This document shows, in pieces, positions 15,633 to 39,974 of a stretch of 64,000 bases of DNA. A program made the position numbers and the translations under genes. The DNA lies in the NCBI GenBank assembly GCA_022823225.1, contig JAJDXM010000063.1, forward strand, positions 1 to 64,000. The letters run 5' to 3'. A model generated the notes under the pieces. That model did no database searches, was not told the origin of the DNA, and saw nothing but the letters and a program-made list of their open reading frames with translations. The number at the start of each line of letters is the position of its first letter. The stretch's first letter is position 1. Source of the stretch: Gemmatimonadota bacterium. Lineage in GTDB: Bacteria > Gemmatimonadota > Gemmatimonadetes > Longimicrobiales > Gaopeijiaceae.

Positions 15633-16388
15633 GTGAGACGCAACACACGCGGCGCCGGGTACGTTGTCATGGTCGCCGGGTCGCTGATCGTGGCGCCGGC
15701 GTGCGGCGGCGCGGGCGGCGGGAGTGGCACACCTTCCGAGTCGGCACCGTCATCGCTGCTCCCCGGGGGCGGCTCCGGTCCCGGGCTTCCCGCCCAGGGG
15801 CTCGCGCTCGACGATATCGGCTTCGACTTCGGCGCGACCGACGCCCCCATCAAGGTGGTCGAGTTCAGCGATTTCGGATGCGGCTACTGCAGGCGTTTTC
15901 ACAGCGAGAAGTTTCCCACCCTGATGACCGACTACATCGAGACGGGCAAGGTGCAGTGGAAGTACGTGACCTTCGTCAGCGGCATGTTCCCGAACGGCAG
16001 AGCCGCCGCCCTGGCGGGGGAGTGCGTGGGCGAACAGGGACACTTCGCGCCCATGAGCGACCTGCTCTACCAGCGCCAGCCCGAATGGAGGAGCGAGTCG
16101 GACCCCGCCGACGTGTTCGAGGCCCTGGCCGTCGAGGCGGGCGCCGAAGCGAGGCGGTACCGCGAGTGCGTAGCCGAAGAGCGTCCCGCTGAACGGCTTC
16201 GCAGCGGCTTCCTCACCGGAGCCCGGCTGGGCGTGCGCGGCACCCCCACCTTCATCATCAACGGGATTCCCCTGGTGGGTGATCAGCCGCTTTCCATGTG
16301 GGCCGACATATTCACTGCCATCGGGGCCGCGGCCGCGAACGCGAACGAGCCCGGCGGCGGGGCGCCGCCACCCGAACCTCGTCCATGA
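15633..16388 (+). CDS. DsbA-family thiol oxidoreductase lipoprotein
   Basis: The product is 251 residues from a GTG at 15633 (an in-frame ATG lies 12 codons later). A hydrophobic signal leads to APAC, with Cys24 as possible lipid site, followed by a Gly/Ser/Pro linker. The thioredoxin-fold domain starts about residue 62. The active-site CGYC is at 83-86, and the cis-proline loop is GVRGTPTFIINGIPL. The insert helical domain is present, as in DsbA/DsbG relatives. It acts on disulfides in the periplasm. The carboxy terminus overlaps the convergent membrane protein gene by 77 bases. Confidence 0.82.
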   Translation: MRRNTRGAGYVVMVAGSLIVAPACGGAGGGSGTPSESAPSSLLPGGGSGPGLPAQGLALDDIGFDFGATDAPIKVVEFSDFGCGYCRRFHSEKFPTLMTDYIETGKVQWKYVTFVSGMFPNGRAAALAGECVGEQGHFAPMSDLLYQRQPEWRSESDPADVFEALAVEAGAEARRYRECVAEERPAERLRSGFLTGARLGVRGTPTFIINGIPLVGDQPLSMWADIFTAIGAAAANANEPGGGAPPPEPRP

Positions 16389-18182: not shown

Positions 18183-19046
18183 ATGACGACGTCACACTTC
18201 CCCCGGGAAGCGGTCCTTCTATTGCGGCCGCCCTACGATCGCCTGGTCGCGGTCGATCCAGCGAGCCCGGATCAGCCCTTCATGGGCGGCTGGGTCATGG
18301 TCTGGAACCTGGGGAGCGAAGCCCGGTCCCAGGCCAGGCACATGGTCGCGCACCGGCCGGCCGGATTGCCGCTGGCCGTGATCCTGCCGGAGAGCGACGA
18401 CCACCTTTCGGTGCTGCGGGTGCTCAAGGCAATCGAACGGTCGCGTCCGCAGGCGGTCCTGCCGTTCCATCGAACGGCGCGGCCCCGCGAGATTGCCAGC
18501 GTCATTCGGCGTGCGCCCGCGAGCCTTGCGACAAGCGTGACCGAATACCTGGAATGGCGCGGATTCGCGCTGGACTCGGTGACCCGCAGCGTCATCTACC
18601 GCACGGTGGAACTGAGTTCCCGCGTCCGCACCATGTCCGACCTGGCGAAGCACCTGTACATGTCCCGGCGCGCGGTGGGCCGGAGATTCCGAAACAGCCT
18701 GCTTCCGGTCCCTTCACACTGGCTGCATATCGGCCGCGTGCTGCGGGCAACGATCCGTCTCCAGAATTCCGACGCGACCCTCTTCAACATCGCTTGCTCC
18801 CTCGGGTATCCCGACGGGTTTTCCCTGAGCAACCAGATGCGGCGCCTGTGCGGCTTCCGTCCTCAGACGGTTCGCGACCTGATCGGATGGGAATGGGTGT
18901 TCGAGGCATGGATTCAGAGGGAGGCGGCCGCGGGCAATGTCGCCCCCGATGTTCTCGACGCGCGGCGGCCGATCACCGGTCTGCGTCCTGACACCGGGGA
19001 CCCGGACGAAGCGGTCGCCGAACCGGGACGGGCTGTTTCGATCTGA
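18183..19046 (+). CDS. AraC-family transcriptional regulator
   Basis: The product is 287 residues. The carboxy-terminal half holds the double helix-turn-helix of AraC proteins: VRTMSDLAKHLYMSRRAVGRR, then IACSLGYPDGFSLSNQMRRL with FRPQTVRDL. The amino-terminal 140 residues are not a recognised sugar-binding cupin and could be a receiver-like sensing fold (VAVDP, PLAVILPESDDHLSVLRVL). Its stop is followed after one base by the start of a large SARP-type regulator, so the two form an operon. Family activators also control some qhp operons, but nothing here proves that link. Confidence 0.78.
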   Translation: MTTSHFPREAVLLLRPPYDRLVAVDPASPDQPFMGGWVMVWNLGSEARSQARHMVAHRPAGLPLAVILPESDDHLSVLRVLKAIERSRPQAVLPFHRTARPREIASVIRRAPASLATSVTEYLEWRGFALDSVTRSVIYRTVELSSRVRTMSDLAKHLYMSRRAVGRRFRNSLLPVPSHWLHIGRVLRATIRLQNSDATLFNIACSLGYPDGFSLSNQMRRLCGFRPQTVRDLIGWEWVFEAWIQREAAAGNVAPDVLDARRPITGLRPDTGDPDEAVAEPGRAVSI

Positions 19047-19047
19047 A

Positions 19048-22000
19048 ATGGCAACCTCCGAATCGGTTGGAACCGGCGGCAACTCCCCGCTTCTGCGACT
19101 CGAACTGTTCGGTGGCCCCGCATTGTGGCGGGATAGGAGCGCGGTAAAGGTATCGCCGTTCCAGGCCGCTCTCCTCTCGGTCGCCTTCTCCGCCGGATCG
19201 GACAGAATCCCGCGCTCCAGGGTGCAGTGGCTCCTGTGGGAGCTGGAGGAAGACAAGTCCGTGCGGCACCGGCTGAGCCAGCTGGTCTATCAGGTGAACC
19301 AGAACTGCGACGCCAGAGTCCTTGAGCTGGAAAGGGAGCACATACGGGTCTCACGTCAACTCGTCTGGTGCGACCTCGACGGATTCGGCGAACTGATCGA
19401 GGCGAACGACTACAAGAAGGCGTTCGAGATGTTCGAGCGCGGCTTTCTCTCGGCGCTTACCGCGAAGCGGACCGAGGCGCTTGCGGACTGGCTCGACGAA
19501 AAAAGGCGCGATCTGCGCAACCGTCTGCGGACATCGGCCCTGGAGCACTGGGACGCAGCCGAGGCGGCACACGACTGGACCGCCGCCAGGACGACGGCGG
19601 AGGTGCTGCTCCGGCTGAATCCAGGCGAGGAACTGGTCCTCAGACGGGTGATGCGTGCACACGCGATGACCGGCCAGGTACGCGAGGTCGAGGCAACTTA
19701 TCGGGCCTTCGCGGAAAGGGCCGCCCCGGAAGGCGTATGGGTTCCCGAACCGGAAACTCTTGAACTCCTGAAGGAATTCAGACCGGCGACCGGGACAATA
19801 CCCCGCGGCCGCATGGATGAAGTCTCGGATCCCGGAGCGACCGCGCCCTTCGTGGGAAGGAACGACTCGATCACGCCCGTCAGCAACAGAGTCCATCAGA
19901 CCGGACGACACTGGCAGACCGTTGTCGTGGCCGGCGAAACAGGAATCGGCAAGACCAGGTTCGCTCAGGAACTCGTCAAGAGCGCAAGTCTGCGCGGATA
20001 CCGGATCGTCAGCGCCTCGCCGGCCGAACTGGAAGCTGGAATACCCCTGGGCCTCATGCTTGAGGTAGTGAGTCAGCCGTGGATCACTCCGTTCATCGAC
20101 GGTCTGCCGGCACCCTGGAAGCCCATGCTGCTCTCCTTGCTGCCAAGGTCCCACGCGAAGGTGGAAGGGACCCTGGCAGCCCAGGTTCCGACCCTCGAAA
20201 ACCTCCCGAGGCACATCTGTGAGGCGTTCCTGCACCTCTTCACGGCCATCGCCCGCACGCGCAAGACGATTCTCTTTCTGGACGGCTTCCATTGGGCGGA
20301 TGAGGCGTCCGTGCGCCTGCTGCAGTTCCTGGCCAGGCGATGGACCACGGGCGGTTTCACCCTGCTGCTCGCCTATCGTCCCGAGGAACTGCGCGGCCGC
20401 GACATCGTCTCCCAGTGGATCGACCTGCTGAAGGCCGATCCGGGCGCCACCGTCACCACGCTCGGACCGTTGAAACCCGACCCTGCGCGGCGGCTGGCGA
20501 GGGCAATCGCCGCGGACGACGTAACGGACGCCGCGATCGACCGGGTCGTGGCCCTGGCGGGCGGGAATCCCCGGTTTCTGATCGATCTGGCGGTCGCGAC
20601 CAAGGTCGGTGCGGATCGGTACATGTACCGCGACAGGATCGCCGTGCCTCCTTCCGTGGAGCAGTCGCTCATCCGCCGTATGCAGGGGTTGAGCGAGCCA
20701 GCCCGGCGGGTGCTCTCATCCCTCGCCGTTCTCGGCCGGGCGGCGACCTTCGCGCATTTGCTGCGCATCGCCGACTGCAGCCGCGACGACTGCGCGGACG
20801 CTCTCGAAGAACTTCAGGATCGGCGTCTGGTGGTCTGGGTGAACGGCGGGGTCCGGATTCGCCAGGACATCGTCAGCGCAGCGATCTACGAACGGCTCAG
20901 CCCGGCCCGCCGCACGCTCCTTCACGCTCGAACGGCCGAACTCCTGAACGACCAGCGCGAGCGCGAACCACTCGAATTGGTCGCGCTCCACTACTTCTGG
21001 GCCGGAAACCACGACATGGCCTACCTCTACGCGACCGAAGCGGTGAAAAAGACGCCGGCGGCGGACATCTCCGGACGCCTCCACCTCCTCAGGGTCGCAT
21101 ACGATGTGAGCGCGGGCCTGTCGCGGACTCTGGTGGCCGCCAGCCTTGCCAGCGCCAACTACGGCTCCCGGCGATTGCGAGCGGCGCTCCGGTTCGGTCA
21201 GGAAGCCCTGCAACAGCCCGGCGAATTCCAGCCGGCGGAGTTGGCGGCGATACGTCTCATGGTCGCCGATACGCAGCACAGGCTCGGATTCACGGAGACC
21301 GGGACCGCTTTGCGCGAGTTCTCGGAAGCAGCGGCCATTGCAGCGAACGAGCGCGATGATGTGCTTCGGGCCGCCGTGGTGGAAACCACGGTGGAGCTGC
21401 TGGACCGGACGGCCGACTACGAATCGATGGCGGAGCAGGCGTCCCGCATCGCGAAGATGGGTTCCCTGGTCAATCCGGCCGCGCAGTCAAGGATATCCGC
21501 GGCGCTTTCACAGGCGTCACGGCATGCCGATCCGGAGGCGGCGATCCGCCACGCCGAAAGCGCGGTCGAGGTGGCCCGCCAGGCTGAACTGCAGGACGAA
21601 ACCGCCGCGGCCCTGTACCGCCTCGCGATCACGCTGAAGGCGCGTGGCCAGCTCGCCGCCGAGGGGGCCTGGGAGGTCCTGGATGAGGCGAAGCGCGCGT
21701 GCAGTGAGGCCGGTCACTGCGGCTCCCTGGCCGTGCTCCTGCTTGCACAGGCCGACTGGCAGACCAGAACCGGAGACCACGAGAGCGCCGAGGACGCGCT
21801 TGCCGAAGCCGCCGCAGTCGTCGACACCATGGACTGTCCGCAGATCCGGGCCATGGAGGGGCTGGCCCGGGGCATCCTCGCCCTGGCAACCGGAAGGGTC
21901 AAGTCCGCGGAGCGAGCGCTCGACCTCGCCCGCGGTCCGGAGTCGGATCACGCCGACTCGGACCCGGAAGTGCATTCCCATCCTGCGAAGACAACCGCGG

Positions 22001-22368
22001 CGCTCGGCGGCCTGGAGGGCTGTGTGCTCCTGGAGTCCGGCAGGATCGGCGTGGCCGCCAGGGTGGCGGAACGTCACCCGCTTCAGGAACCCATGGAGCA
22101 TCAGCCGCAAATCCTGATTCTCTTCCACACGCGTCTCAAGTCCCGCGTGGGCGACCTGTCCGGCGCCCTGGATCTTCTTGAGCGAGCCGTTGACGCGACT
22201 GAAGCGGTGAGGCCGATGGAATGGCTGAGTTTGGCGCTGGAACTCGTCCGGCTGGCCCGGAGGAGCGGAAACCCGCGGCCTGAACTCGCCCGAAAGGCAC
22301 AGACCACGGCCAGGAGCCTCGGGCTGCCGGGTCTGGCGGAGGAGTTCGGACCCTTCAGCGGCGCGTAG
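19048..22368 (+). CDS. SARP-type AAA ATPase transcriptional regulator (BTAD + AAA + TPR)
   Basis: The product is 1,106 residues. Domains in order: winged-helix DNA-binding domain at about 15-105 (LRLELFGGPALWRDRSAV), bacterial transcriptional activation domain at about 110-245, NACHT/AAA ATPase from about 265 with Walker A AGETGIGKTRF and Walker B TILFLDGFHWADEASV, then a long helical TPR-like region to the end. This is the architecture of large SARP/LAL activators, which use ATP to switch assembly and activate promoters. The start ATG is one base after the AraC gene's stop. The target genes are unknown. Confidence 0.83.
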   Translation: MATSESVGTGGNSPLLRLELFGGPALWRDRSAVKVSPFQAALLSVAFSAGSDRIPRSRVQWLLWELEEDKSVRHRLSQLVYQVNQNCDARVLELEREHIRVSRQLVWCDLDGFGELIEANDYKKAFEMFERGFLSALTAKRTEALADWLDEKRRDLRNRLRTSALEHWDAAEAAHDWTAARTTAEVLLRLNPGEELVLRRVMRAHAMTGQVREVEATYRAFAERAAPEGVWVPEPETLELLKEFRPATGTIPRGRMDEVSDPGATAPFVGRNDSITPVSNRVHQTGRHWQTVVVAGETGIGKTRFAQELVKSASLRGYRIVSASPAELEAGIPLGLMLEVVSQPWITPFIDGLPAPWKPMLLSLLPRSHAKVEGTLAAQVPTLENLPRHICEAFLHLFTAIARTRKTILFLDGFHWADEASVRLLQFLARRWTTGGFTLLLAYRPEELRGRDIVSQWIDLLKADPGATVTTLGPLKPDPARRLARAIAADDVTDAAIDRVVALAGGNPRFLIDLAVATKVGADRYMYRDRIAVPPSVEQSLIRRMQGLSEPARRVLSSLAVLGRAATFAHLLRIADCSRDDCADALEELQDRRLVVWVNGGVRIRQDIVSAAIYERLSPARRTLLHARTAELLNDQREREPLELVALHYFWAGNHDMAYLYATEAVKKTPAADISGRLHLLRVAYDVSAGLSRTLVAASLASANYGSRRLRAALRFGQEALQQPGEFQPAELAAIRLMVADTQHRLGFTETGTALREFSEAAAIAANERDDVLRAAVVETTVELLDRTADYESMAEQASRIAKMGSLVNPAAQSRISAALSQASRHADPEAAIRHAESAVEVARQAELQDETAAALYRLAITLKARGQLAAEGAWEVLDEAKRACSEAGHCGSLAVLLLAQADWQTRTGDHESAEDALAEAAAVVDTMDCPQIRAMEGLARGILALATGRVKSAERALDLARGPESDHADSDPEVHSHPAKTTAALGGLEGCVLLESGRIGVAARVAERHPLQEPMEHQPQILILFHTRLKSRVGDLSGALDLLERAVDATEAVRPMEWLSLALELVRLARRSGNPRPELARKAQTTARSLGLPGLAEEFGPFSGA

Positions 22369-28383: not shown

Positions 28384-29595
28384 TCAGCCCTTCAGCAGTC
28401 CGTAGAGTTCAAGGAAGGGAACCTCCATTTCGTCCGTCCTCGCGAGGAGTACGTAGTCATCCCCGATGTCCATCAGCTCCGACCCCGCGGGAATCGCGAC
28501 CTCGCCAAGCAGGCGGCCGTCGGCGAGAAAGACCTCGTACGTGTCGCGGCCGGTCCCCTCGTCGCCCACGGGCCAAAGCCCCACCCAGGTGTTTCCGCTT
28601 TGATCGACCAGCAGTGACCTGCCGCCGGAACTGTTCTCCGGGGCCGGGAAGGTCTCTTCCACAACCTCCGGGCCGACCTCCACCATGTCGGCCACCCTCC
28701 GGTAAAGGGCCGCGAGCGCCTCGCCCTCCGGCGCTCTCCTTACACCGTGCCGCCGCACGATGCGGAGCGTATCGCCGGCGGCCGTCATGAAGGTCAGCTC
28801 GTAGCGGTCACGACGCAGAGAAGCCAGGACCGGGGGCGACCCCCCCACGGCAACCCGGTCCGCCCGCTCGAACGGGTCGAAAACATGCCGGTAGAGGCCG
28901 TCGGGTCCCTGACGGTACGCGTTTCCCGGACCCGTGAACAGACCGACGGTATCGAAGCGTTCCCCTCTCCAATCCGCGCGCAACAGAAGGTATTGAGGCC
29001 TCTGGACGATGCCTTCGGCGGGCAGGCCTCCCAGCGGAATGAAGTCGCAAAGGAACACATCGTCGCCGTTGAAGGTCTGATCACAGGAGTACTGCTGAAG
29101 GGGTGTCCAGTCGAAGCGCTCGTCGGAAATCAGGTCGCCAGAGGAACTGAATCGAACGCGCTTGTCCTTCCCCCGGATCTGGACCCCACCAGCAAACCTC
29201 GACAATTCGTCGGCCCACTCGACTTCGCCGGGCCCCTCGCCCGGTCCACCCGCGGTGAACAGGTGCACCCCCTGACCATCGAAGAAGCGCAGATCCCGGG
29301 ACTGCCAATCGAGGACCACGATCGTGTCGGACGCGAGCCGCAGGGCCCCTGCAATCTCGGAGAACTGGTATTCCGCTTCACCCGATACGGCCCCGATCGT
29401 CACGGAGGGCTCAGGTGTGAGACGCCAGGCATCGCCACCGGGCGAGATCGCTTCCCACACGTCCACAACCGCGATTCCCGCCGAGTCTTCGATGGTGAAC
29501 GCGGGCCCATCGGTGGACGCGTCCCGGCCACCGCCATCTCCGCCAGTACACGCGCAGAGCAGCAGGCCGGCTGCGAGCGGTCTCAGGACTCGAAT
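28384..29595 (-). CDS. Six-bladed beta-propeller lipoprotein between qhpD and qhpC
   Basis: The product is about 403 residues. The family hallmark is present (AGGPGEGPGEVEWAD), as is the closing RTDEMEVPFLELYG. The amino terminus IRVLRPLAAGLLLCAC is a short lipoprotein signal with Cys16 as anchor. No ATG, GTG or TTG fits before it in frame; the plausible starts are ATT (29595) or CTG (29586), both overlapping the end of qhpD. Overlap implies translational coupling inside the qhp transcript. This is not a known qhp gene. Its role, if any, in amine oxidation is unproven. Confidence 0.75.
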   Translation of the reverse strand: MRVLRPLAAGLLLCACTGGDGGGRDASTDGPAFTIEDSAGIAVVDVWEAISPGGDAWRLTPEPSVTIGAVSGEAEYQFSEIAGALRLASDTIVVLDWQSRDLRFFDGQGVHLFTAGGPGEGPGEVEWADELSRFAGGVQIRGKDKRVRFSSSGDLISDERFDWTPLQQYSCDQTFNGDDVFLCDFIPLGGLPAEGIVQRPQYLLLRADWRGERFDTVGLFTGPGNAYRQGPDGLYRHVFDPFERADRVAVGGSPPVLASLRRDRYELTFMTAAGDTLRIVRRHGVRRAPEGEALAALYRRVADMVEVGPEVVEETFPAPENSSGGRSLLVDQSGNTWVGLWPVGDEGTGRDTYEVFLADGRLLGEVAIPAGSELMDIGDDYVLLARTDEMEVPFLELYGLLKG

Positions 29596-31031
29596 TGCTC
29601 CAGATACCCCGGGTTCCTGACCGCGATCTCGCCGTACACCTTCAGGCACGTATCCGTCCAGCTCCGGATCCAGTCGCAGTAGTGCAGGTTGGCCACGCCC
29701 GTGTCGCCGTAGCGGACGTGCGCCTCGTGGTAGCAGCCGCCGGCGCAGAGGGGCCGGGCCCAGCAGGTGTTGCAGTCGGTCTTGTTGGCGACGTGATGCC
29801 GTCCCAGGAACTCGAACTGGCGCTGGCGGTCGAGTCCCTTGTCCACCGACCCGATGCTGTGGTCGTCCGAGCCCGCGAACCTGTGGCAGAGCGCGACTTC
29901 GCCGTCCGTCGCCACCCCCATCAGCCCCAGCCCCGCCCCGCAGGGGAAGGCCTTGCTGACGCCCTTGTGGATCTCCTCGATCGTGTCCTTCACATTCGAG
30001 AAGCCGTGGTGGCGGTCCTCGACGGCGAACTGCAGGAACTCCTGCGCGAGCTCCTCGAACTGGCCGAGCATGCGGTCGAAGCCGGTGTCCTGGATCGCGT
30101 AGCCGCGCCCGTTGGCGGTCGTGACCGGCGCGAAGCCGACCTCCCAGAAGCCGATCTCGTTGCGCAGGTGGTGGAAGATGCGGGTCACGTTCAGCGTCTG
30201 GCGGGTGAGCGTCACGCGGGCCCCGATCGGGCGCGAGCGGTGGCGCTCCAGGAGCCGCCTGATCTTCGGCATCGCGTAGTCGTAGCTGCCCATCCCGTTC
30301 TTGAAGACACGGAACCTGTCCTGCATCTCCTTCGGCCCGTCGATGCTGACCGTCACCCCGACGCGGTTCTCCGCCAGCCAGTCGATCACCTCGTCGCGCA
30401 GCAGCGTGCCGTTGGTCGTGAGCGAGAAGTCGACGTCCTTCCCCAGCTCCTTCGCCCGCCGGCGCGCATAGGCGACCGTCTTCTTCAGCACCTTGAAGTT
30501 GAGCAGCGTCTCGCCGCCGAAGAAGGTGAGGTGCGCCACCGGCAGGTCGCCCGACTGCTCGAACATGAAGTCGACGCTCTGGCGCGCGGTCTCCTCGCTC
30601 ATGTAGTTCGGCGCGGGGTCGCAGGCCGTGTCGACGATCTTGTCCTCGCCGTACTCGTAGCAGTACGTGCACGCCAGGTTGCACTTGTTCGTGACGTTGA
30701 GGACCATCGTCGTGAGCGGAAAGTCGGCCTGCGGGAGGACGCGGGGGAAGGTCTCCTTCGGCGCGCTGGTGAGGCCGATCGCGCGGACCCGCATCAGTTC
30801 GGCCAGGCTGCGGCGCACGGTGGGTTCGCCGTGGTGGGGGGCGAGCGCGGCGATGATGGTGTCTTCGCTGGCCGGGCCGGAATCGAGGGACTGCAGGACG
30901 GCAAGCGAGGCCGGGTCGAGGTGGAAGACCGCCGCCGAGGGGACGAGGTACAGGAAGGTCTCGCCGCCGGCTTCGAAGGGGTGGAATTCGCGTTGGGCGA
31001 GGAAGGCGGGGTCTGTGGTGGGGGTGCTCAT
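29583..31031 (-). CDS. qhpD: Radical SAM/SPASM QHNDH maturase QhpD
   Basis: The product is 482 residues from ATG 31031. The radical SAM cluster motif CNLACTYC is at residues 117-124, with the SAM-binding GGE in LTFFGGETLLNF. The carboxy-terminal SPASM region has CGAG and CNTCWARPLCAGGC for auxiliary clusters. The amino-terminal 100 residues form the RRE-like/peptide-recognition part. QhpD makes the intrapeptide Cys-to-Asp/Glu thioether bonds in QhpC using SAM. It is the first gene of the minus-strand qhpD-propeller-qhpC-qhpB-qhpF series and is divergent from the ankyrin genes. Confidence 0.93.
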   Translation of the reverse strand: MSTPTTDPAFLAQREFHPFEAGGETFLYLVPSAAVFHLDPASLAVLQSLDSGPASEDTIIAALAPHHGEPTVRRSLAELMRVRAIGLTSAPKETFPRVLPQADFPLTTMVLNVTNKCNLACTYCYEYGEDKIVDTACDPAPNYMSEETARQSVDFMFEQSGDLPVAHLTFFGGETLLNFKVLKKTVAYARRRAKELGKDVDFSLTTNGTLLRDEVIDWLAENRVGVTVSIDGPKEMQDRFRVFKNGMGSYDYAMPKIRRLLERHRSRPIGARVTLTRQTLNVTRIFHHLRNEIGFWEVGFAPVTTANGRGYAIQDTGFDRMLGQFEELAQEFLQFAVEDRHHGFSNVKDTIEEIHKGVSKAFPCGAGLGLMGVATDGEVALCHRFAGSDDHSIGSVDKGLDRQRQFEFLGRHHVANKTDCNTCWARPLCAGGCYHEAHVRYGDTGVANLHYCDWIRSWTDTCLKVYGEIAVRNPGYLEQFES

Positions 31032-31170
31032 GACATGACAGTAGGGGAATGTGGCGCGGGGGGCCAGAGTAGGGACCGAGGAGGGGAGTGTTGTCGACGA
31101 ACGTGCAGGATAGCGGCCCACCACCTACACACTCCCGGACCCTGACCCGGCACCGCCGGGTATCACACGG

Positions 31171-31176
31171 TATAAT
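31171..31176 (+). promoter_or_regulatory. Probable -10 box of the ankyrin operon
   Basis: A perfect TATAAT lies 54 bases before the ATG of the first ankyrin gene, in the 198-base gap shared with qhpD. No good -35 hexamer is seen at standard spacing. A GGAGGA ribosome binding site follows at 31220-31225. Confidence 0.45.
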
Positions 31177-31229
31177 GGGATGACCCGGATTCAACCGCCC
31201 CAGGGCACCAGAGGCACTTCGGAGGAACC

Positions 31230-34200
31230 ATGAAAGAGTTCGCTCTGGCGGGTCATCGGCCAGTTGTTGCGGGCGTCCGCTCGGCCTCCTTCTTTGCCCT
31301 GGTTCTCCTCCTTTGCCAAGCCTGCGCCGCTGCCCCCACCGCAGACCCGGGAACCGCGCGCGCCGCCACCCCAGCCACCACCACCCACCCCACCTGCGAC
31401 CATTGGGGCTCGATCGACTTCTTCCGCGATGCCACCCCGCAACTGGTGCGCGAGTGCCTCCAGGCGGGCGCGGACCCCAACGGCCCCCCGGGGGTGTACC
31501 CCCTGCCACCCCTCTTCGTCGCGGCCGCGCGGTCGCCGCATCCGGTCGTCATCCCGATACTGGTCGATGCCGGAGCAGACGTGGCCGCCCGCGAATGGGG
31601 CGACCTCACTCCCCTGCACGAGGCCGCGGGTCAGAACACGAACGCCGGGGTCACAGCCGCGCTCCTGGAGGTGGGGGCGGACCCGAACGCGCGGGATCGG
31701 GACGGGATTGCCCCGCTGCACCTGGCGGCGAACAACAACAGCAACCCGGATGTCGTCACCTTCCTGATCGAGGCTGGCGCCGACCCCAACACCCGCGATC
31801 CATACGGCAACACGCCCCTTCACCTGGCTTGGGCCGACAGCTGGTTTGATCGCCGCCCGGTCATGCGCGAACTCCTGCGTCTGGGTGCCGATCCACTCGC
31901 CCGCAACGATGCGGGAGAGATCGCCGACCAGACCCACTGCGACAACTGGGACGCGGGCTACTTCGCCTCTTCGGCGCTCCCTGCCGACTACGTGCGCTGC
32001 CTCGACGCGGGTGCGGACCCCAACGCACGCGATGGCGAAGGGCAGATGTTGCTCCACCGGGCTTTGGAGAACCGAAACCCGGAGGTCACCGCCCTGTTGC
32101 TGGACGCTGGCGCGGACCCCAACGCTGCGGGGCTTGGGGGTCCCCCGCTCATGCGGGTGATCTGGCTTAATTCCCGGCGCTACAGTAGTCCCGACCCCGC
32201 GATTGCAAGTGAACTGGTCCGGCTACTTCTGGCTGCGGGCGCGGACCCCAACGGGGATAGGTCCAGAACCGGGACGCCGTTGCACAGTGCCGCTAGCCAG
32301 GGGGCTGCAGAACTGGTTGGCATGTTGCTGGAGGCCGGCGCGGATCCGAACCCGCCGACTCGGCGCTGGGAGACATCGCCGCTCGCCGCTGCCACCCGAT
32401 CCGGCCACACCGAAGTCATCCGGCTCCTGGAAGCCGCCGGAGCCGAAGCCGACTCCCGGACCGGGAACGAATCGATGCGCGAGCGTCGAGCCCCGGCGGG
32501 GGAAACACTCCCCGACGACCCCGACTACCCCTGCGGCGACACGGAATTCCTTGAGTTTGCCCCGCCCGAGAGCCTGCACGCCTGCCTGGAAGCCGGCGCC
32601 CGGTTCGACGAACCCGTCTCCCGGTTGACCCCACTCTCATTCCTGGCCAGAGAGGGTGGTGCAGCCGTCCCCGAGAAGATCGCCCTCCTGCTGGCGGCGG
32701 GCGCGAATCCAAACACGGTCGATGACCAAGGGCGGACGACGCTGCACCTGCTCGTCGGGCGGGAGTCGGGGGACGACGCTGTTGGGCGGATCACCGTCCC
32801 GGCTTTGCTTGACGCGGGTGCCGACGTGAACGGGCGCGACGACCGAGGCCGAACCCCCCTGCACGACGCGGTGGAGGCGGCCGTTCGGGGGGGAACACTC
32901 GCACAGGACGCGAGCCATGTGATCCGGCTGCTGCTGCGGGCTGGCGCGGATGCGAATGCGCGCACGCACCTCGGCGAAAGTCCATTGCACATCGCAGCGT
33001 CTGTGCCCACTCGCAACGCGACGGACGTTGCCCCCGTGATTGCCGCCCTGCTCGAGGCCGGCGCGGAGATCGATGCCAGGACCGAAGACGGGCGGACGCC
33101 GTTGCATTTGGCCATCCAGACGAACCGGCCCGCCGCTGTACTACCGTTCCTCGAAGCAGGCGCGGATCCGGCGCTTCGCGACGACGCGGGGAACCTTGCC
33201 GATCCGACCACCTGCGAGCACTGGGGCAAGGCGGTGTTCTTCGCGACTGCCGACGCAGATGTCATCGCCCGTTGCATTGAGGCCGGGGCGGACCCGGTTT
33301 CACCAGTGGAAGCGGCCGCACAGCACAGGGCTTCGCTTCTCCATTTCGTTTCCGGCCACGCCCGCGATCCCGCAGTGATCACTGCCCTCGTGGAAGCGGG
33401 CGCCGACGTCAACGCACGCGACGTATGGGGATTCACGCCCCTGCATTCTGCCGCGGAGAACGCCACGCCCGCCGCCGTGCAGGCACTGGTCCAGGCCAGC
33501 GCCGACGTCAACGCGCCGTTGAGATCGTTCGGCCGCGGTTTGGACTCCCGGGGAGGACGGACCCCGCTGCACATTGCGGCGTCCAACCCCAACCCGGAGG
33601 TCGTCGCCGCGCTGATCGAAGCCGGCGCAGATGTCGGCGCGCGCGCGGGCACTTGGACCGGCACCCCCCTGCACCTCGCTGCGCGGAACCCGAATCCGGC
33701 GGTGGCGGCGCTGTTGCTGGACGCCGGTGCCAACGTGCACGCACGGGAGTTGGCAAGGACCTATTCGCCGTACGGGCTGACCGTGAGCAGCGTGGACGAG
33801 ACCACCCGCCGGCTGGGTGGAATCACCCCGCTGCACGGGGCGGCGTGGCTGAATCCGAATCCGGAGGTCCTCGCCCTGCTCCTGGAGGCCGGAGCGGATC
33901 CCGGAGCCCTGGCATGGAGGACCGAGGACCACCACCGTGCGGAACGGCGGAGCGACAACCCCCACTACCAATGGTCGGGGAATGTAACTCCCCTTTACGA
34001 CGCGGCCCGGTTCAGCGCCGATCGCGCAGCCGTGGAGACTCTCGTCGCAGCGGGCGCCGACGTGAATGGTCGCGGAGCGCAGTTGACCTTTCATCCCCGG
34101 CAGCAGGCCACGTCTCCCGACCCGCACCTGTCGCCTCTCTATCTGGCGGTTCGGGGGGACGGGCACCCCGCCACAATCGAGGCCCTGGTGCGCGCGGGTG

Positions 34201-34412
34201 CCGACCTCGAGCTGACCGATCCGGACGGCCGCACCGTGCTCCACGTGGCGGCGATCGGCTACCCAGCCGTCTTCCCCCTCCTCCTGCGCCTGGGTGCCGA
34301 CCCCGAAGCCCTCGACGCCGACGGCAAGACGCCCATGGATTACGCGAGGGAAAACTACATGCTGCAGCCTTGGGAGCGGGTCAAAATGTCATCTCCGCTT
34401 GGCCGAAGGTAA
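31230..34412 (+). CDS. Giant exported ankyrin-repeat protein 1
   Basis: The product is 1,060 residues. A signal sequence around residues 18-32 (SASFFALVLLLCQAC) suggests export, possibly as a lipoprotein at Cys32. The rest is nearly continuous ankyrin repeats of the TPLH(L/A)A...LLEAGADPNAR type. Four times the array is punctuated by a module with paired cysteines: 56/76, 237/257, 435/452 and 662/682, each in a C-x-x-W or similar context followed by C(L/I)xAGA. Such cysteine pairs suit an oxidising compartment. It is followed seven bases later by a paralogue with the same plan. The binding partner is unknown. Confidence 0.85.
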   Translation: MKEFALAGHRPVVAGVRSASFFALVLLLCQACAAAPTADPGTARAATPATTTHPTCDHWGSIDFFRDATPQLVRECLQAGADPNGPPGVYPLPPLFVAAARSPHPVVIPILVDAGADVAAREWGDLTPLHEAAGQNTNAGVTAALLEVGADPNARDRDGIAPLHLAANNNSNPDVVTFLIEAGADPNTRDPYGNTPLHLAWADSWFDRRPVMRELLRLGADPLARNDAGEIADQTHCDNWDAGYFASSALPADYVRCLDAGADPNARDGEGQMLLHRALENRNPEVTALLLDAGADPNAAGLGGPPLMRVIWLNSRRYSSPDPAIASELVRLLLAAGADPNGDRSRTGTPLHSAASQGAAELVGMLLEAGADPNPPTRRWETSPLAAATRSGHTEVIRLLEAAGAEADSRTGNESMRERRAPAGETLPDDPDYPCGDTEFLEFAPPESLHACLEAGARFDEPVSRLTPLSFLAREGGAAVPEKIALLLAAGANPNTVDDQGRTTLHLLVGRESGDDAVGRITVPALLDAGADVNGRDDRGRTPLHDAVEAAVRGGTLAQDASHVIRLLLRAGADANARTHLGESPLHIAASVPTRNATDVAPVIAALLEAGAEIDARTEDGRTPLHLAIQTNRPAAVLPFLEAGADPALRDDAGNLADPTTCEHWGKAVFFATADADVIARCIEAGADPVSPVEAAAQHRASLLHFVSGHARDPAVITALVEAGADVNARDVWGFTPLHSAAENATPAAVQALVQASADVNAPLRSFGRGLDSRGGRTPLHIAASNPNPEVVAALIEAGADVGARAGTWTGTPLHLAARNPNPAVAALLLDAGANVHARELARTYSPYGLTVSSVDETTRRLGGITPLHGAAWLNPNPEVLALLLEAGADPGALAWRTEDHHRAERRSDNPHYQWSGNVTPLYDAARFSADRAAVETLVAAGADVNGRGAQLTFHPRQQATSPDPHLSPLYLAVRGDGHPATIEALVRAGADLELTDPDGRTVLHVAAIGYPAVFPLLLRLGADPEALDADGKTPMDYARENYMLQPWERVKMSSPLGRR

Positions 34413-34419
34413 AGAGAAG

Positions 34420-37400
34420 ATGACTACCAGGGGGCAACCGAAGCCGTTCGGGAGCGCAACGTTCCTGCTGCTACCCCTCCTCGTAGCGGGTTGCACCGCC
34501 ACGCCCGCACCCAGCTCGCCCACCCCCGCGTCACCCCCCTGCGACGGCTGGGGCGCGTTCACCTTCTTCGAGTCGGCTACCCCGCAGGACGTTCGCGAGT
34601 GCCTGGAAGCGGGTGCCAACCTCAACGACCCGTTCTGGGGACAGGTTTTCCACACGGCGGCGCGCTACTCCCCGGACCCGGCCGTCATCGATGTGCTGAT
34701 CGAGGCCGGCGCGGACTTGTACGCCCACAATTCGGAAGGCGGCACGCCCCTGCACTCGGCCGCGGCGGGCAACACTCACACAGGCGTCATTGCCGCGCTG
34801 CTGGAGGCTGGCGCCGACCCCAACGCGCGGGACCTGGACGGCCTGACGCCCCTGCACATGGCCGCCCACACGAACGACAATCCGGACATCGTCACCGCCC
34901 TCGTGCAAGCCGGCGCCGACCCCAGCGCCCGGGGCCCCGCCGGCCTGACGCCCCTGCACATGGCCTGGAACCAGCGGTGGCCCGGCATCCGCCCCGCGGC
35001 AGTCCGCGAATTGCTGCGGCTGGGCGCCGACCGCCTCGCGCGCGGCGATCTCGGTCAGATCGCCGACCCGACCCACTGCGACCATTGGACCACGGCCACC
35101 TTCGCCCAGCTCGCGGTGCCGACAGACTTCATCCGTTGCCTGGAACTGGGCGCGGACATCCTCGCCCGCGACGATCAGGACAACACTCCCCTGCACCGCG
35201 CAACGCAGAACGACGATGCATCCGTCCTGGCGGTGCTGCTGGACGCGGGGGCCGATCTCGAAGCCCGCAACCGACGGGGCCACACCCCACTGCATTCCGC
35301 AATCAGCCACGGCAACCTGACCGCCATGACCGCCCTGCTGGCCGCCGGAGCCGACATCGAAGCCGATGCTGGCGGCTTCTACAGGACACCCCTCAACTAC
35401 GCGGCCTTGCGCATCACCCGCTCGGTGAAGGAGCGCAACGAGGTCACGATCACCCTCATCGAGGCCCTGCTCGAGGCGGGGGCCGATGTCAACACCGCCG
35501 ACGAACGCGGTGACAGCCCACTCGTGAAAGCCCTCAGATATGGCTTGCCGGATGGCCCATCCACACCCCGATCCGATTCCATTGCCGATGCGGTGGCCGA
35601 CCTCGCCTTGAAGCTGTTGGCGGCCGGCGCGGATCCCGGCGCTCAGGGTAGGTCGGGATCAACCCCGCTGCACGAGGCCGCAGAATACAAACCCCCGATT
35701 CTGGTGCAAGCCATGCTGGACGCCGGGGCCGATCCGGATCTACGTAACGGCGCCGGCAATTCCGCGCTGCATTCGGCCGCACGGTCCGGCAGCGTCGAAG
35801 TCATCGAACTTCTGATCAACGCCGGTGCGCAGGTGAACGTTCGAAACCGGTCCGGGATGTCCCCCCTTCACAGTGCGGTTCTCTCGGGAAGGACCTCCAT
35901 GATCGCCGTGCGAACTCCAACCCTGGAGACGGGACCGTGGCTGCAGCGGGCAGCCGCCCTGCTCGAAGCCGGCGCGGACCCGAACCTGGCGGATGCCAAC
36001 GGTGACACCCCCCTGCACTTCGCCGCGCAGGTTTTCGACACCGCACTGGTGTCCCTCCTGGCAGACGCCGGTGCCGCTGTGAACACCCTCAACGACGGCG
36101 GTGAGACTCCGCTGCAGGCGGCCCGGAACCACGCCAACGCGGCGGTTGCGCGCAAGCTGGTCGACATTGGGGCGGATCCGGTCGCGCTCGAGGGCACCGG
36201 TGGGATTGACGGCCCATTCTGCGCCCTGGACGCCTTCATGTTCGTGATTCTCGCCCCACCCGAGACCTTGAGAGATTGTCTGGCTGCCGGCTTCTCCATC
36301 AACACGCCTGACTGGGCCGACCTGACGCCCCTGGTCCAGCTGGTGCGCTTTGGCTCCACACGCGGCGCCCCCGAGAAGGTCGCGCTCTTCCTGGCGGCGG
36401 GGGCGGATGTGAACGCCCGCAATTCCCGCGGAGAGACGCCGTTGCACAGAGCGGCACGCCGGGAGAGTCCCGACACAGCCTCCATGGAGTCGCTGCTGCT
36501 GGAGGCCGGTGCGGACGTGAACGCCCGCGCGAACGACGGACAGACCCCGCTGCACCTGGCCGCGTCCCTCGACCACATCCCCGTCGTAGCCGTTCTGCTG
36601 GAGGCCGGCGCGGAGGTGGACGCCCGTACGAACGCCGGCCACACCCCGCTGCACCTGGCTCTGCTGGGGGGTCGGCGCGCCGCCGCAGCCACGCTGTTGG
36701 AAGCCGGAGCCGATCCGGACGCACGCGACGGCGACGGCAGACTCGTCGATCCGGCCAGCTGCGAGCGCTGGGGCACCGAGACCTTCTTCGTGTTCGCCAC
36801 TGCCGATGTCGTGGCCGCCTGTCTGGAGGCGGGGGCGGACGCTCGCGCGATCAGACCGCAGCCGGATCCCCCGGTTCTCCCGGATGGATGGATCGTGCGC
36901 CCCCGGCGCCCGAGCACTCCCCTCCACATGGCTGCCGCCCAGACACGGGACCCCATCGTCATCACCGCCCTGGTGGAGGCCGGCGCAGATGTGGCCGCGC
37001 GCGACAACGGGGACTACACGCCGCTGCACAAGGCCGCCGAGACCGGCACGCCGGGCGTGGTGCGGGCGCTTCTGGAGGCCGGGGCCGAGGTGGACGCCCG
37101 GCCCCAGGGCTTCGATCGCGGGTTTTCCAGTGGCCGCAATACCCCACTGCACAATGCCGCGCGCAACCCGGATCCGGCGGTTGCCGGGGCGCTCCTCGAA
37201 GCGGGTGCGGAGGTCAACGCCCGTGGTCGGGACGGCATCACCCCGCTGCACTATGCGGCGTGGAATCGGAATCCGGCGGTCGCAGAACTCCTTCTGGAGG
37301 CTGGAGCCGAAGTCAACGCGCGCTCATCCCGCGGCCTCACTCCGCTTCATCGGGCGGCTTCGGGGAACTCGAACCCTGCGGTGCTTTCCGTCCTGCTGGA

Positions 37401-37857
37401 GGCCGGGGCCCACGTACACGCGCGAGGATCGTACCGCACCGCCCACGACCCGCCCGGCCGGCTGACACCCCTGCACTCCGCAGCGAACTGGAACCGCAAC
37501 CCGGAGATCGTGACGCTGCTCGTCGCCGCGGGGGCGGACCCCGATGGAGGGTTGGCTCGGGCAGTCGTTCCCCGGTCGCCCGTCAGCTTGGCCGCCTTCA
37601 CCAACGGCAACCCCGCCGTGCTAGAGGCACTCCTGCACGCGGGCGCGAGCCTGGATCTGGCCGACTCCGAAGGCCGCACCGTCCTGCACCACGCGGCGAT
37701 CACTTTTCCCGCTGCCTTCCCCCTCCTGCTGCGCCTGGGCGCCGACCCGGAAGCGCGCGACGTGGAGGGGAAGACGCCCATGGACTACGCGAGGGAGAAT
37801 CCGGCGCTCAATCCCTGGGAGCGAGTCAGAATGTCAACTCTGCTTGGCAAAAGGTAA
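34420..37857 (+). CDS. Giant exported ankyrin-repeat lipoprotein 2
   Basis: The product is 1,145 residues from ATG 34420. It has a clean lipoprotein signal, FLLLPLLVAGC, with Cys25 as anchor. Ankyrin repeats fill the rest, interrupted by cysteine-paired modules at 41/61, 220/240, 601/620 and 781/801. The carboxy terminus GKTPMDYAREN then NPWERVRMS is almost the same as in the upstream paralogue (QPWERVKMS), so the pair arose by tandem duplication. Both stops are followed by AAGAGAAG. It is likely cotranscribed with ankyrin 1 and displayed on the cell surface or in the periplasm. Confidence 0.87.
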   Translation: MTTRGQPKPFGSATFLLLPLLVAGCTATPAPSSPTPASPPCDGWGAFTFFESATPQDVRECLEAGANLNDPFWGQVFHTAARYSPDPAVIDVLIEAGADLYAHNSEGGTPLHSAAAGNTHTGVIAALLEAGADPNARDLDGLTPLHMAAHTNDNPDIVTALVQAGADPSARGPAGLTPLHMAWNQRWPGIRPAAVRELLRLGADRLARGDLGQIADPTHCDHWTTATFAQLAVPTDFIRCLELGADILARDDQDNTPLHRATQNDDASVLAVLLDAGADLEARNRRGHTPLHSAISHGNLTAMTALLAAGADIEADAGGFYRTPLNYAALRITRSVKERNEVTITLIEALLEAGADVNTADERGDSPLVKALRYGLPDGPSTPRSDSIADAVADLALKLLAAGADPGAQGRSGSTPLHEAAEYKPPILVQAMLDAGADPDLRNGAGNSALHSAARSGSVEVIELLINAGAQVNVRNRSGMSPLHSAVLSGRTSMIAVRTPTLETGPWLQRAAALLEAGADPNLADANGDTPLHFAAQVFDTALVSLLADAGAAVNTLNDGGETPLQAARNHANAAVARKLVDIGADPVALEGTGGIDGPFCALDAFMFVILAPPETLRDCLAAGFSINTPDWADLTPLVQLVRFGSTRGAPEKVALFLAAGADVNARNSRGETPLHRAARRESPDTASMESLLLEAGADVNARANDGQTPLHLAASLDHIPVVAVLLEAGAEVDARTNAGHTPLHLALLGGRRAAAATLLEAGADPDARDGDGRLVDPASCERWGTETFFVFATADVVAACLEAGADARAIRPQPDPPVLPDGWIVRPRRPSTPLHMAAAQTRDPIVITALVEAGADVAARDNGDYTPLHKAAETGTPGVVRALLEAGAEVDARPQGFDRGFSSGRNTPLHNAARNPDPAVAGALLEAGAEVNARGRDGITPLHYAAWNRNPAVAELLLEAGAEVNARSSRGLTPLHRAASGNSNPAVLSVLLEAGAHVHARGSYRTAHDPPGRLTPLHSAANWNRNPEIVTLLVAAGADPDGGLARAVVPRSPVSLAAFTNGNPAVLEALLHAGASLDLADSEGRTVLHHAAITFPAAFPLLLRLGADPEARDVEGKTPMDYARENPALNPWERVRMSTLLGKR

Positions 37858-37946: not shown

Positions 37947-39752
37947 CTAACTCCCGTCCGTCCGCCTCGGCAGCACCAGCGTGATGTCCCCGATCCGCCA
38001 CGGTTCCCAGCGCATGTAGAGCGGCACCGTGACGATCAGGTGGGCCCGCCCGCGCACCTCCTCGCCGTCGGGGCCGTGCCAGGTCGCGACCACCCACACG
38101 TCGCCGATGTTGTTGCGCATGCCGCTGCGCTCGGGGTTGGGGCCGTCGATCGCGGGATGGAAGAGGCCGCCCTCGTCCAGCGTCCCGATGTACTCGATGT
38201 CGTCGTCGTCGAAGACCGCGGCGTATTCCTCGACGCTCCAGGTCACGTCGACGTGGCCGAGCGGCAGGTCGTCCCCGGTTTCGGGGTCGCCGTCGGGGCC
38301 GTTGCTGTAGGCGGTCGCCTCGAACTGGGCGAATCCCTTGGGGAAGTTCCCGCCACCGACCCGCGCCATCCCCGCCTCGGGCGTCACCGCGATCCGGTCG
38401 ATGGTCTCGTAGACGGTGAACGCTCCCGGGACAGGCTGGCCGGCCAGGAACACATCCCGGGCGCCCGCAGCGGCGTCCTCGGCAGCCGCCACCTCCGCCG
38501 TGAACCGGTCCGACCCGCTCTCGACGACGCGCACGAGCTCCACACCGGGTCCCAGATCGACATCGTCGGGGCCCAGCCCCTCGGCCAGGTTCACCCCGTG
38601 CACGGTCACGGTCGCCGTCGTCCCGGCACGCACCGCCACCGGATGCAGCCCCGACAGCACCGGACCGTTCGCGCGCACGAGCTTCACATCCGGCCCGAAC
38701 TCGTCGTAGGCGCCCATGAACCAGCGACCGTTGATCTCGTTCCAGCCGCGCTCGACCATCATCACCTCGCGCAGCGCCGTCTCCTCGTCCCCTCCGACGA
38801 AGGAGCGACCGCGCCACTGGTAGCCGGTGTAGACGATCGTCCGGCCGTCGCGCTCGATCCGCTCGCCCGTGCGCACATACTCGTAGCGGAGCCGGGTGAT
38901 GAAGCTGGACGCGTCTGCCCCCTCCGCGATCTCCACCGTCCCGTAGATGGGCCCGAATCCCGGATCGTGACCGCTGAGCGCCCACGTTCCCGCGATCCGC
39001 GGCGGCCGCTTCGTCGCCGACCAGGCCGTCCACTCGGGAGTCACGAGCGGGAACTCGCCCGACAGGTGGCGCACCGCGGCGTCCTTCGGATGGCCGGAAC
39101 TCGCTCCGAACCGCATGAACCCCTGGCCGTCCGAGAGCGGGTAGTAGCCCCGGTGCGTCGCCATCAGCAGGTCCCATTCCTCCCGGGTCCGACGCTGGGT
39201 GATGACCCGTCCCATGGAGTGGCACTGGCTGCAGGTATCCTCCACATCCTCGTCCGGCTCGTAGCTCCAGTCGATCAGCCGCCGCTCGACCTCGAAGCGG
39301 CCCGGCCGGAGCTCCTCCGGCGCGATCCCGTGATTGTCCGACAGGTAGCGGACGATGTCGCGCGCCACCGCCTCGTCCAGCTCCACGTTGTTGAGCGTCA
39401 CCATGCGCCGGATCGACTGCTGCCACCCCTCCGGAGTCTTCCGCATGTAGGAGATGCGGGTCATCATGCCGTCGTCGTCGACCGCATGGCAGCGCTGGCA
39501 GGCGTCGATGACGGTCTCGTTGGTAACGGGGATGCCTTCGTCGTCCCCGTCGTCGCCGTTCTGCTGGGCAGTGGCGAGGGCGGGGATCGTGAGGGAGAGG
39601 AGGACGGCGGCTGGGAGCCTCCGGGACACGAACGCCGAGCACGGGCGCGAGACCGGCCGCGCACCAGAAGGCCGCCGGCCCGAGAGCCGGGGTCCGGGAA
39701 GTTGACGCAGCGCCCGCTCCGCACCGCTCCGACCAGCCATGAGAGGTTTCAT
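37947..39752 (-). CDS. qhpA: Quinohemoprotein amine dehydrogenase alpha subunit (diheme)
   Basis: The product is 601 residues from ATG 39752 (an alternative lies at 39740). It has a long amino-terminal extension, then a signal core LLSLTIPALATAQQ. Two c-type heme motifs are CQRCH (85-89) and CSQCH (174-178), forming the diheme domain. The carboxy-terminal two thirds are beta-sandwich/barrel domains with GEFPLVTPEWTAWSA and later Ig-like repeats, as in QhpA. It accepts electrons from CTQ in the gamma subunit and passes them to a periplasmic carrier. It is separated from the other subunit genes by the ankyrin pair. Confidence 0.9.
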   Translation of the reverse strand: MKPLMAGRSGAERALRQLPGPRLSGRRPSGARPVSRPCSAFVSRRLPAAVLLSLTIPALATAQQNGDDGDDEGIPVTNETVIDACQRCHAVDDDGMMTRISYMRKTPEGWQQSIRRMVTLNNVELDEAVARDIVRYLSDNHGIAPEELRPGRFEVERRLIDWSYEPDEDVEDTCSQCHSMGRVITQRRTREEWDLLMATHRGYYPLSDGQGFMRFGASSGHPKDAAVRHLSGEFPLVTPEWTAWSATKRPPRIAGTWALSGHDPGFGPIYGTVEIAEGADASSFITRLRYEYVRTGERIERDGRTIVYTGYQWRGRSFVGGDEETALREVMMVERGWNEINGRWFMGAYDEFGPDVKLVRANGPVLSGLHPVAVRAGTTATVTVHGVNLAEGLGPDDVDLGPGVELVRVVESGSDRFTAEVAAAEDAAAGARDVFLAGQPVPGAFTVYETIDRIAVTPEAGMARVGGGNFPKGFAQFEATAYSNGPDGDPETGDDLPLGHVDVTWSVEEYAAVFDDDDIEYIGTLDEGGLFHPAIDGPNPERSGMRNNIGDVWVVATWHGPDGEEVRGRAHLIVTVPLYMRWEPWRIGDITLVLPRRTDGS

Positions 39753-39932
39753 CCGACCGATTGCTTTCCGTTTGGGAGGGATGGAGTATTCGTGCTTGCC
39801 GGTTTCGGCGACTGATTGAGTTAACAGGCTGATCGCAGACTTCGCCAGCCCGCACCAGGATCGGAGCAAGCCGCCGGTGCCACCGGGCGCTTCCGTTGCG
39901 GCCCGTCTCCAACGACGTACCACGCACAGGAA

Positions 39933-39974
39933 TTGACCACCGGTTCTTGATTCTGATACCATATTGTGGTATCA
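39933..39974 (+). promoter_or_regulatory. hicAB promoter and operator
   Basis: A TTGACC at 39933-39938 and a TACCAT at 39957-39962 are spaced by 18 bases. A perfect inverted repeat TGATACCA/TGGTATCA (39954-39961 and 39967-39974, five-base spacer) covers the -10 region, just before the hicA start. It is the probable binding site of the HicB ribbon-helix-helix domain. Confidence 0.7.

Follow-up and report, generated by a model that had tools for sequence, protein, structure and literature searches.

Ankyrin repeats are described in textbooks as cytosolic solenoids that do not depend on cysteine. The stretch of DNA considered here (the window, 64,000 nucleotides, positions 1 to 64,000 of contig C9 of a 4.19 Mb Gemmatimonadota genome in 97 contigs) encodes two very large ankyrin proteins, giant 1 and giant 2, whose cysteines come in regularly spaced pairs. 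What do such pairs do in a fold of this kind? An earlier note on this DNA had read them as disulfide-stapled capping repeats of exported proteins. In our analysis, the two proteins are probably exported giant ankyrin solenoids with disulfide-stapled specialised repeats, which would serve as a binding scaffold at the cell envelope. The two genes and their features are the following.

31230..34412, + strand: ankyrin giant 1, 1060 amino acids, four cysteine-pair modules (open reading frame, cysteine census, Pfam Ank/Ank_2)
31230..31325, + strand: signal region of giant 1, with a hydrophobic stretch, C29 and C32 and a weak lipobox
31395..31457, + strand: module 1 of giant 1, C56/C76 (cysteine census)
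31938..32000, + strand: module 2 of giant 1, C237/C257 (cysteine census)
32532..32585, + strand: module 3 of giant 1, C435/C452, spacing 17 (cysteine census)
33213..33275, + strand: module 4 of giant 1, C662/C682 (cysteine census)
34420..37857, + strand: ankyrin giant 2, 1145 amino acids, four cysteine-pair modules (open reading frame, cysteine census, Pfam Ank/Ank_2)
34420..34494, + strand: signal peptide of giant 2, ending in the lipobox LVAGC
34540..34602, + strand: module 1 of giant 2, C41/C61 (cysteine census, both predicted models)
35077..35139, + strand: module 2 of giant 2, C220/C240 (cysteine census, both predicted models)
36220..36279, + strand: module 3 of giant 2, C601/C620, spacing 19 (cysteine census, 1109-residue model)
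36760..36822, + strand: module 4 of giant 2, C781/C801 (cysteine census, 1109-residue model)

The start of giant 2 is most likely the ATG at 34420 rather than the GTG at 34294. Because this start lies only 7 bases past the stop of giant 1, both genes are probably co-transcribed. Giants 1 and 2 are 53% identical, and both belong to the tandem-repeat families Ank (PF00023; 314.1 and 401.1 bits, cut-off 21.1) and Ank_2 (PF12796; 311.1 and 451.8 bits, cut-off 27.3). Giant 2 has 29 ankyrin anchors.

All eight cysteine pairs were found at exactly the residues given in the earlier note, with a spacing of 20 in six of the eight and of 17 and 19 in the others. The C-x-x-W start that it called usual is seen in six modules, and its C(L/I)xAGA motif is exact in six, the other two reading CLELGA and CLAAGF. 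The full cysteine list comprises residues 29, 32 (signal region), 56, 76, 237, 257, 435, 452, 662 and 682 in giant 1 and 25 (lipobox), 41, 61, 220, 240, 601, 620, 781 and 801 in giant 2. Thus the mature giants have no unpaired cysteine, the only others being those of the signal and lipobox regions. Random placement of eight cysteines gave all four pairs at a spacing of 17-20 in none of 200,000 trials per giant; the pairing is not due to chance. On standard ankyrin repeat numbering, anchored on G25-A26-D27, the 20-spaced modules carry Cys1, Trp4, Phe9 (often also at 10), Ala13, Cys21 and Leu/Ile22. Since this fit is gapless, the module reads as a single ankyrin repeat with one cysteine in the turn that leads into helix 1 and the other in helix 2.

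Pairing was then followed through the protein family. Ankyrin frames were drawn from the same genome, from same-genus and related genome stretches and from 18 named loci; after removal of near-copies the set comprised 123 frames, the two window giants counted, and was not selected for pair number. Of its 4051 helix-2 sites, 352 hold a cysteine, and 338 of these have another cysteine 16-27 residues upstream, as compared to 59 of 3699 sites without a helix-2 cysteine; this count takes every repeat of the collected proteins, by which a bias of retrieval (see below) is lessened and still present. The 14 exceptions, when read, proved to be ten filter losses in which C1 had been discarded (e.g. CANWG), three frame ends or signal regions and one real case, which raises the paired helix-2 cysteines to 348 of 352. 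A profile with masked cysteines had been tried as a pairing test and was replaced by this site-based count: with blanked columns, the local alignments stop before C1, and most rows therefore have a gap at that site.

In 80 members with at least three pairs (one of which drops to two in the final assignment), 600 of 706 cysteines lie in pairs of spacing 16-24. The spacing is 20 in 217 of 300 pairs, 19 in 55 and 23 in 18. Exactly four pairs are present in 53 of the 80 members and no unpaired cysteine in 46; leftover cysteines are even in number (zero included) in 74, the extras coming mostly in twos. Many of them are vicinal CC (VSAxxCCADFENV, EVWDRCC), belong to pairs with a spacing of 25-26 or lie in tails read out of frame. 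A subset of paralogues (L074, L093, L070, L077, L086 and others) has the vicinal CC of VSAxxCCADFENV about 50 residues past the start of the third module. None of the eight cysteines varies in an alignment of 38 full-length members with a mean column identity of 40%; these members were selected for four pairs, and of the 40 that passed the selection two much longer ones were left out. In an alignment of 46 modules, picked to differ and all picked to have the pair, only C1, F9, C21 and G25 are invariant. Cys1 and Cys21, by which we define the proposed disulfide-stapled ankyrin repeat, are kept together in the family.

The consensus of the 20-spaced modules is CDDWGTRDFF..V.ACLEAGADPNAP for the first, CENWNTAVFARVALPADFARCLEAGADVNARD for the second and CERWNTATFFALATADVVAGCIEAGADVNAR for the fourth module (54 members); the third mostly reads C-D-W and has a spacing of 19. 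Because the module consensus is position-specific, one ancestral module order appears to have been kept through the expansion of the family. Its members are giants of about 1,000-2,000 residues whose four or five modules follow a conserved order, and it has expanded genus-wide by tandem duplication. Codon comparison of 37 close pairs gave a ratio of nonsynonymous to synonymous substitution rates (dN/dS) of mostly 0.25-0.5 (range 0.25-0.78), with the core positions most constrained, and on this ground the giants read as maintained, working proteins. Diversifying selection at the binding face was not seen in these comparisons or in the entropy per repeat position; there was no sign of an arms race at this face.

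Other ankyrin proteins of the same genome carry further cysteine arrangements. A protein of 750 residues (L015, contig C47) has a single N-terminal module (CEMWNTEEFF...ACLDAGADP) and perhaps represents the ancestral single-domain state. In L011 and L017 the cysteine pair at the N-terminus is more closely spaced (18 and 14). Five ankyrin proteins without a module, encoded at L012, L013 (two genes), L014 and L016, end in a CxxC that is conserved at the C-terminus (CRSCGGRR, CVSC, CVSC, CLGC, CRTC).

The claim of export held up, with signal peptides or lipoboxes at the N-termini of both the giants and the family. Both giants have an export signal ahead of the repeats, a lipobox in giant 2, where Cys25 is expected to be lipidated, and a hydrophobic signal in giant 1. 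The first modules of most module proteins come after signal peptides or lipoboxes. An automatic rule sorted 106 module-bearing frames into 28 with a lipobox, 48 with a signal resembling those of signal peptidase I, three truncated and 27 with none or an internal one; on reading, 16 of these 27 have a plain hydrophobic signal missed by the rule and 11 have an internal first matched module. In the same genome a VKOR gene (C37:38779) adjoins a DsbA gene (C37:38184), and there are several further DsbA-like matches; together these would provide the equipment for extracytosolic disulfide formation. Two of the further matches (PF01323) lie inside the window at 16029-16307 and 53367-53801 (+ strand).

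AlphaFold models were obtained for the first 308 residues of mature giant 2 (predicted local distance difference test, pLDDT, 88.9; predicted template modelling score, pTM, 0.82) and for the whole mature protein of 1109 residues (pLDDT 86.8, pTM 0.72). The four modules of giant 2 are predicted to share one form: a helix 1 of 6 residues, beginning 14 residues ahead of the second cysteine, and a helix 2 whose start is offset by 8 residues from that of helix 1. In the regular repeats around them helix 1 is modelled with 8 residues and the offset is 11 (e.g. H40-47/H51, H74-81/H85, H108-115/H119).

Designed ankyrin repeat proteins (DARPins), their N-cap included, fit residues 3-166 of the 308-residue model at about 3 A, and with several structural partners the fit extends to about residue 200 (2.7-3.7 A); over residues 1-299 the fits are mostly 6-8 A (ankyrin-1 7.5-8.0 A), with two rows of at least 14 A. 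These fits agree with a possible break of the solenoid at module 2 (C184/C204 of the 308-residue model), whose junction is predicted with a pLDDT of about 90. The best matches of the 1109-residue model are 24-repeat ankyrins (4rlv, 8cs9), NOMPC and DARPin fusions, followed at lower rank by alpha-latrotoxin and tankyrase clusters. When the PDB was searched by sequence, no best stretch among the best 60 of 229 rows began before profile position 15. The proposal of capping repeats that divide the solenoid holds in part: module 1 is a true end, lies at the expected place of the N-cap and aligns with that of DARPins. Modules 2 to 4 are internal, and a division there is suggested by the model fits.

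Given the pairing, the short helix 1 shared by the modelled modules, the export signals and the VKOR gene next to DsbA, a disulfide staple is the best reading of the modules. Sec would export both giants, of which giant 2 would be lipid-anchored, and after export VKOR/DsbA would oxidise each C1-C21 pair to an intra-repeat disulfide, pinning the coil that precedes helix 1 onto helix 2. Folding would give a long rod of about 29 repeats with a stapled N-terminal cap, formed by module 1, and three stapled internal repeats, which would stabilise the solenoid and probably punctuate it into a few ankyrin segments. Staples would meet the need of a very long protein outside the reducing cytosol. At the envelope, the segments may offer a scaffold for protein binding that is most likely turned towards other cells, with a sponge host as the likely partner. 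This host-facing role is the weakest step and is suggested by the behaviour of other symbiont ankyrin-repeat proteins. For the stapling claimed earlier, obligatory pairing in the family, export signals and disulfide-forming machinery are all present; from these we infer the bond itself.

Several points weigh against this reading. The lipobox of giant 1 is weak. Positions 1 and 21 of a canonical ankyrin repeat are not neighbours, and therefore a bond would need an altered N-terminal coil, at which the model only hints. The differences in root-mean-square deviation behind the segment boundaries may also come from curvature. The family loci were retrieved with a profile containing the cysteines, by which paired modules are favoured. 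In the 37 close pairs the concave face shows no clearly faster evolution than the back (pN/pS 0.445 versus 0.424).

Alternatively, the cysteine pairs could hold a metal or cofactor or be redox-active. The conserved aromatic Trp4 and Phe9 beside the fixed pairs and the redox enzyme encoded by the adjoining gene cluster would fit such a role. However, each module offers two cysteines and no conserved His, Asp or Glu partner in the 46-row alignment, and modules also turn up where the redox cluster is absent, from the locus or from the whole genome, so we regard this as unlikely. About equally improbable are inter-molecular disulfides that cross-link the giants into a polymer or coat, as might be expected of exported, lipid-anchored proteins in tandem copies, and no result here puts the two cysteines of a module within bonding distance; yet a fixed short spacing within one repeat, recurring four to five times per protein, better fits an internal bond. 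A little less probable still is that these are ordinary ankyrin proteins whose pairs are a relic of an ancestral repeat, without bond or role. As the family expands by tandem duplication, the motif could have spread by shared ancestry alone. Against this, the two cysteines are invariant while the module sequences diverge (in the 46 modules, all chosen with a pair), the partner is kept although the spacing varies from 17 to 24, relatives in a second phylum keep all ten cysteines at 56% identity, and loss of one cysteine alone is close to absent among relatives. The disulfide staple remains the preferred reading.

The redox cluster is an operon for quinohemoprotein amine dehydrogenase, which giants 1 and 2 interrupt on the opposite strand between qhpA and qhpD.

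29583..31031, - strand: qhpD, quinohemoprotein amine dehydrogenase maturase (TIGR03906; 561.6 bits, cut-off 453), left flank
31032..31229, no strand: divergent intergenic stretch from the likely qhpD start (31031) to giant 1, scanned for promoters
37947..39962, - strand: qhpA, alpha subunit (TIGR03908; 467.9 bits, cut-off 274.35), right flank

The scan of 31032..31229 gave no sigma-70-type consensus pair. QhpD scores over the cut-off in 19 of 23 genomes of the genus. At ten of these 19 loci qhpA abuts qhpD, and at nine an ankyrin gene or remnant adjoins qhpD, facing away from it; qhpA is seen beyond the array at five of the nine, and at four the stretch ends inside the array. One occupied locus (G013) holds a short remnant with a single module only (L162 3663-4547), which terminates in a stop; arrays have thus apparently also been lost. 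Since qhpA adjoins qhpD at all 16 family loci with QhpD outside the genus, the ankyrin insertion is derived. On the QhpD tree the occupied label needs two changes, and eight of the nine occupied loci form one group (support 84/84); a single origin of the occupied site is possible.

That the cysteines are substrates of the radical S-adenosylmethionine maturase QhpD, which would join them by thioether cross-links and make the giants part of the amine dehydrogenase system, is very improbable: an ankyrin gene or remnant does lie beside qhpD in opposite orientation in 9 of the 19 genus genomes, but none lies between qhpA and qhpD at 16 of 16 loci outside the genus and 10 of 19 within it, many arrays are on other contigs or distant from qhpD, two genomes (G011 and G015) have module proteins and no QhpD over the family cut-off, and no open-access paper was found joining both terms.

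In the window, qhpC and qhpD are separated by a propeller-like lipoprotein frame (28384-29580, - strand). G012 and G021 likewise have a long gap between these two genes, and that of G009 contains an ankyrin stretch; on these grounds the operon seems to collect insertions. Elsewhere in the window, a long frame at 18937-22368 (+ strand) gave a weak match to a TOMM kinase/cyclase fusion (68 bits, cut-off 705.75).

How far the module extends was followed in two phyla, Gemmatimonadota and Bacteroidota. The search in other genomes that the earlier note had proposed found it recurring in dozens of related giants and in Bacteroidota. With an initial module profile at E 1e-3, matches were obtained in 38 of 98 relatives, but this model also catches plain ankyrin repeats. 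At 1e-5, the profile built on 46 rows gave matches in 29 of 298 Gemmatimonadota genomes, which fall into 4 of 119 genera and belong mostly to the genus of the window; the copy numbers per genome that it gives are lower bounds. Named relatives are metagenome-assembled genomes (MAGs) of Gemmatimonadetes/Gemmatimonadota (prefixes RHO, SB0661, APA, jk18x) and one Longimicrobiales chromosome; a weak match in Flavobacterium lacks the module. Similar C-x-x-W-N-T caps presumably exist in other symbiont MAGs, which we take as a lead and not as a result.

Modules occur in 4 of 296 Bacteroidota genomes. Two Bacteroidota frames of 1734 and 1740 residues, whose ten cysteines past the signal peptide form five pairs, agree in the order of these pairs with giants from another Gemmatimonadota family. 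They share 56-57% identity with the Gemmatimonadota five-module giants over about 1750 residues, have a G+C content of 55% as compared to 70%, and nest within the Gemmatimonadota five-module clade in a tree of 14 proteins (midpoint root only). With relatives this close in Bacteroidota, transfer between phyla is the simplest reading and likely. A 77-residue query against plasmids and phages gave general ankyrin matches only, none of those listed covering query residues 1-5; most of the matches listed (15 of 20 plasmid records, 14 of 14 phage records) start at query residue 21 or later. Viral contigs gave no match to the giant 2 pattern. Tentatively, the giants may represent a class of extracellular ankyrin solenoids, with a single disulfide staple in each of four or five specialised repeats at conserved sites, which moved between phyla as whole genes, was amplified into arrays in symbionts and in one lineage split the qhp operon, where it may share the control region of qhpD.

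A specific function could not be assigned through NCBIfam names (type IV secretion effectors, MzaA), since every score was below cut-off. Identity with the Dot/Icm ankyrin effector AnkY was rejected at 188.6 and 291.3 bits (equivalog cut-off 600; repeat-level matches only), and identity with the MZA anti-phage protein MzaA at 141.6 and 196.6 bits (equivalog cut-off 800). A match of giant 2 to the PA4642 family NF038106 (54 bits over 26 residues, cut-off 50) was judged a repeat artefact.

Among known ankyrin systems, DARPins with their N-terminal capping repeat resemble the giants in fold and in having a capped solenoid, to the extent of the fit over model residues 3-166; their caps rely on polar substitutions and are not known to use a disulfide. 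Tankyrase likewise has several ankyrin segments per chain, and its ankyrin repeat clusters 1-3 (5jhq) are among the matches of the full model, but its sequence is unrelated past the repeat level, and tankyrase is cytosolic and not known to have disulfide staples. Ankyrin-1 and ankyrin-B (24 repeats), the best structural matches of the full model (4rlv, 8cs9), are cytosolic membrane adaptors with one continuous solenoid. Alpha-latrotoxin is a giant ankyrin solenoid that acts outside cells; its family (9goa) is a structural match only (TM-score 0.24, 21% identity, repeat-level), and no other domain was seen in the giants. Secreted ankyrin proteins of sponge symbionts share the ankyrin repeats, and the giants have export signals as well; the giants differ in their 1000-2000 residues, their four or five cysteine modules of fixed order and their tandem arrays.

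According to PMC8163846, ankyrin proteins are enriched in sponge Gemmatimonadota (0.25% of coding genes versus 0.09% in seawater MAGs), and some ankyrin proteins of sponge symbionts alter uptake by host phagocytes. Most of the MAGs of the relatives presumably derive from sponge samples, as indicated by prefixes such as RHO and by PMC8163846, which covers Rhopaloeides odorabile. No account of cysteine-stapled ankyrin modules was found in the open-access literature. The ankyrin repeat and the symbiont setting are already known; no description was found of the stapled repeat with fixed module order, of the giants shared across phyla or of the operon insertion.

A cysteine-stapled family, if true, would show a natural route to a long, stable ankyrin scaffold outside the cell, and a repeat of 33 residues with a C1-C21 pair is a defined test piece for engineers of ankyrin binders. 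The pattern C-x2-W-x16-C-L, together with the fixed module order, is a sequence handle to trace host-contact proteins as they move between symbiont phyla. If the extracellular stapled class is true, each species would possess a distinct set of long, oxidation-proof binding rods for contact with hosts or neighbours.

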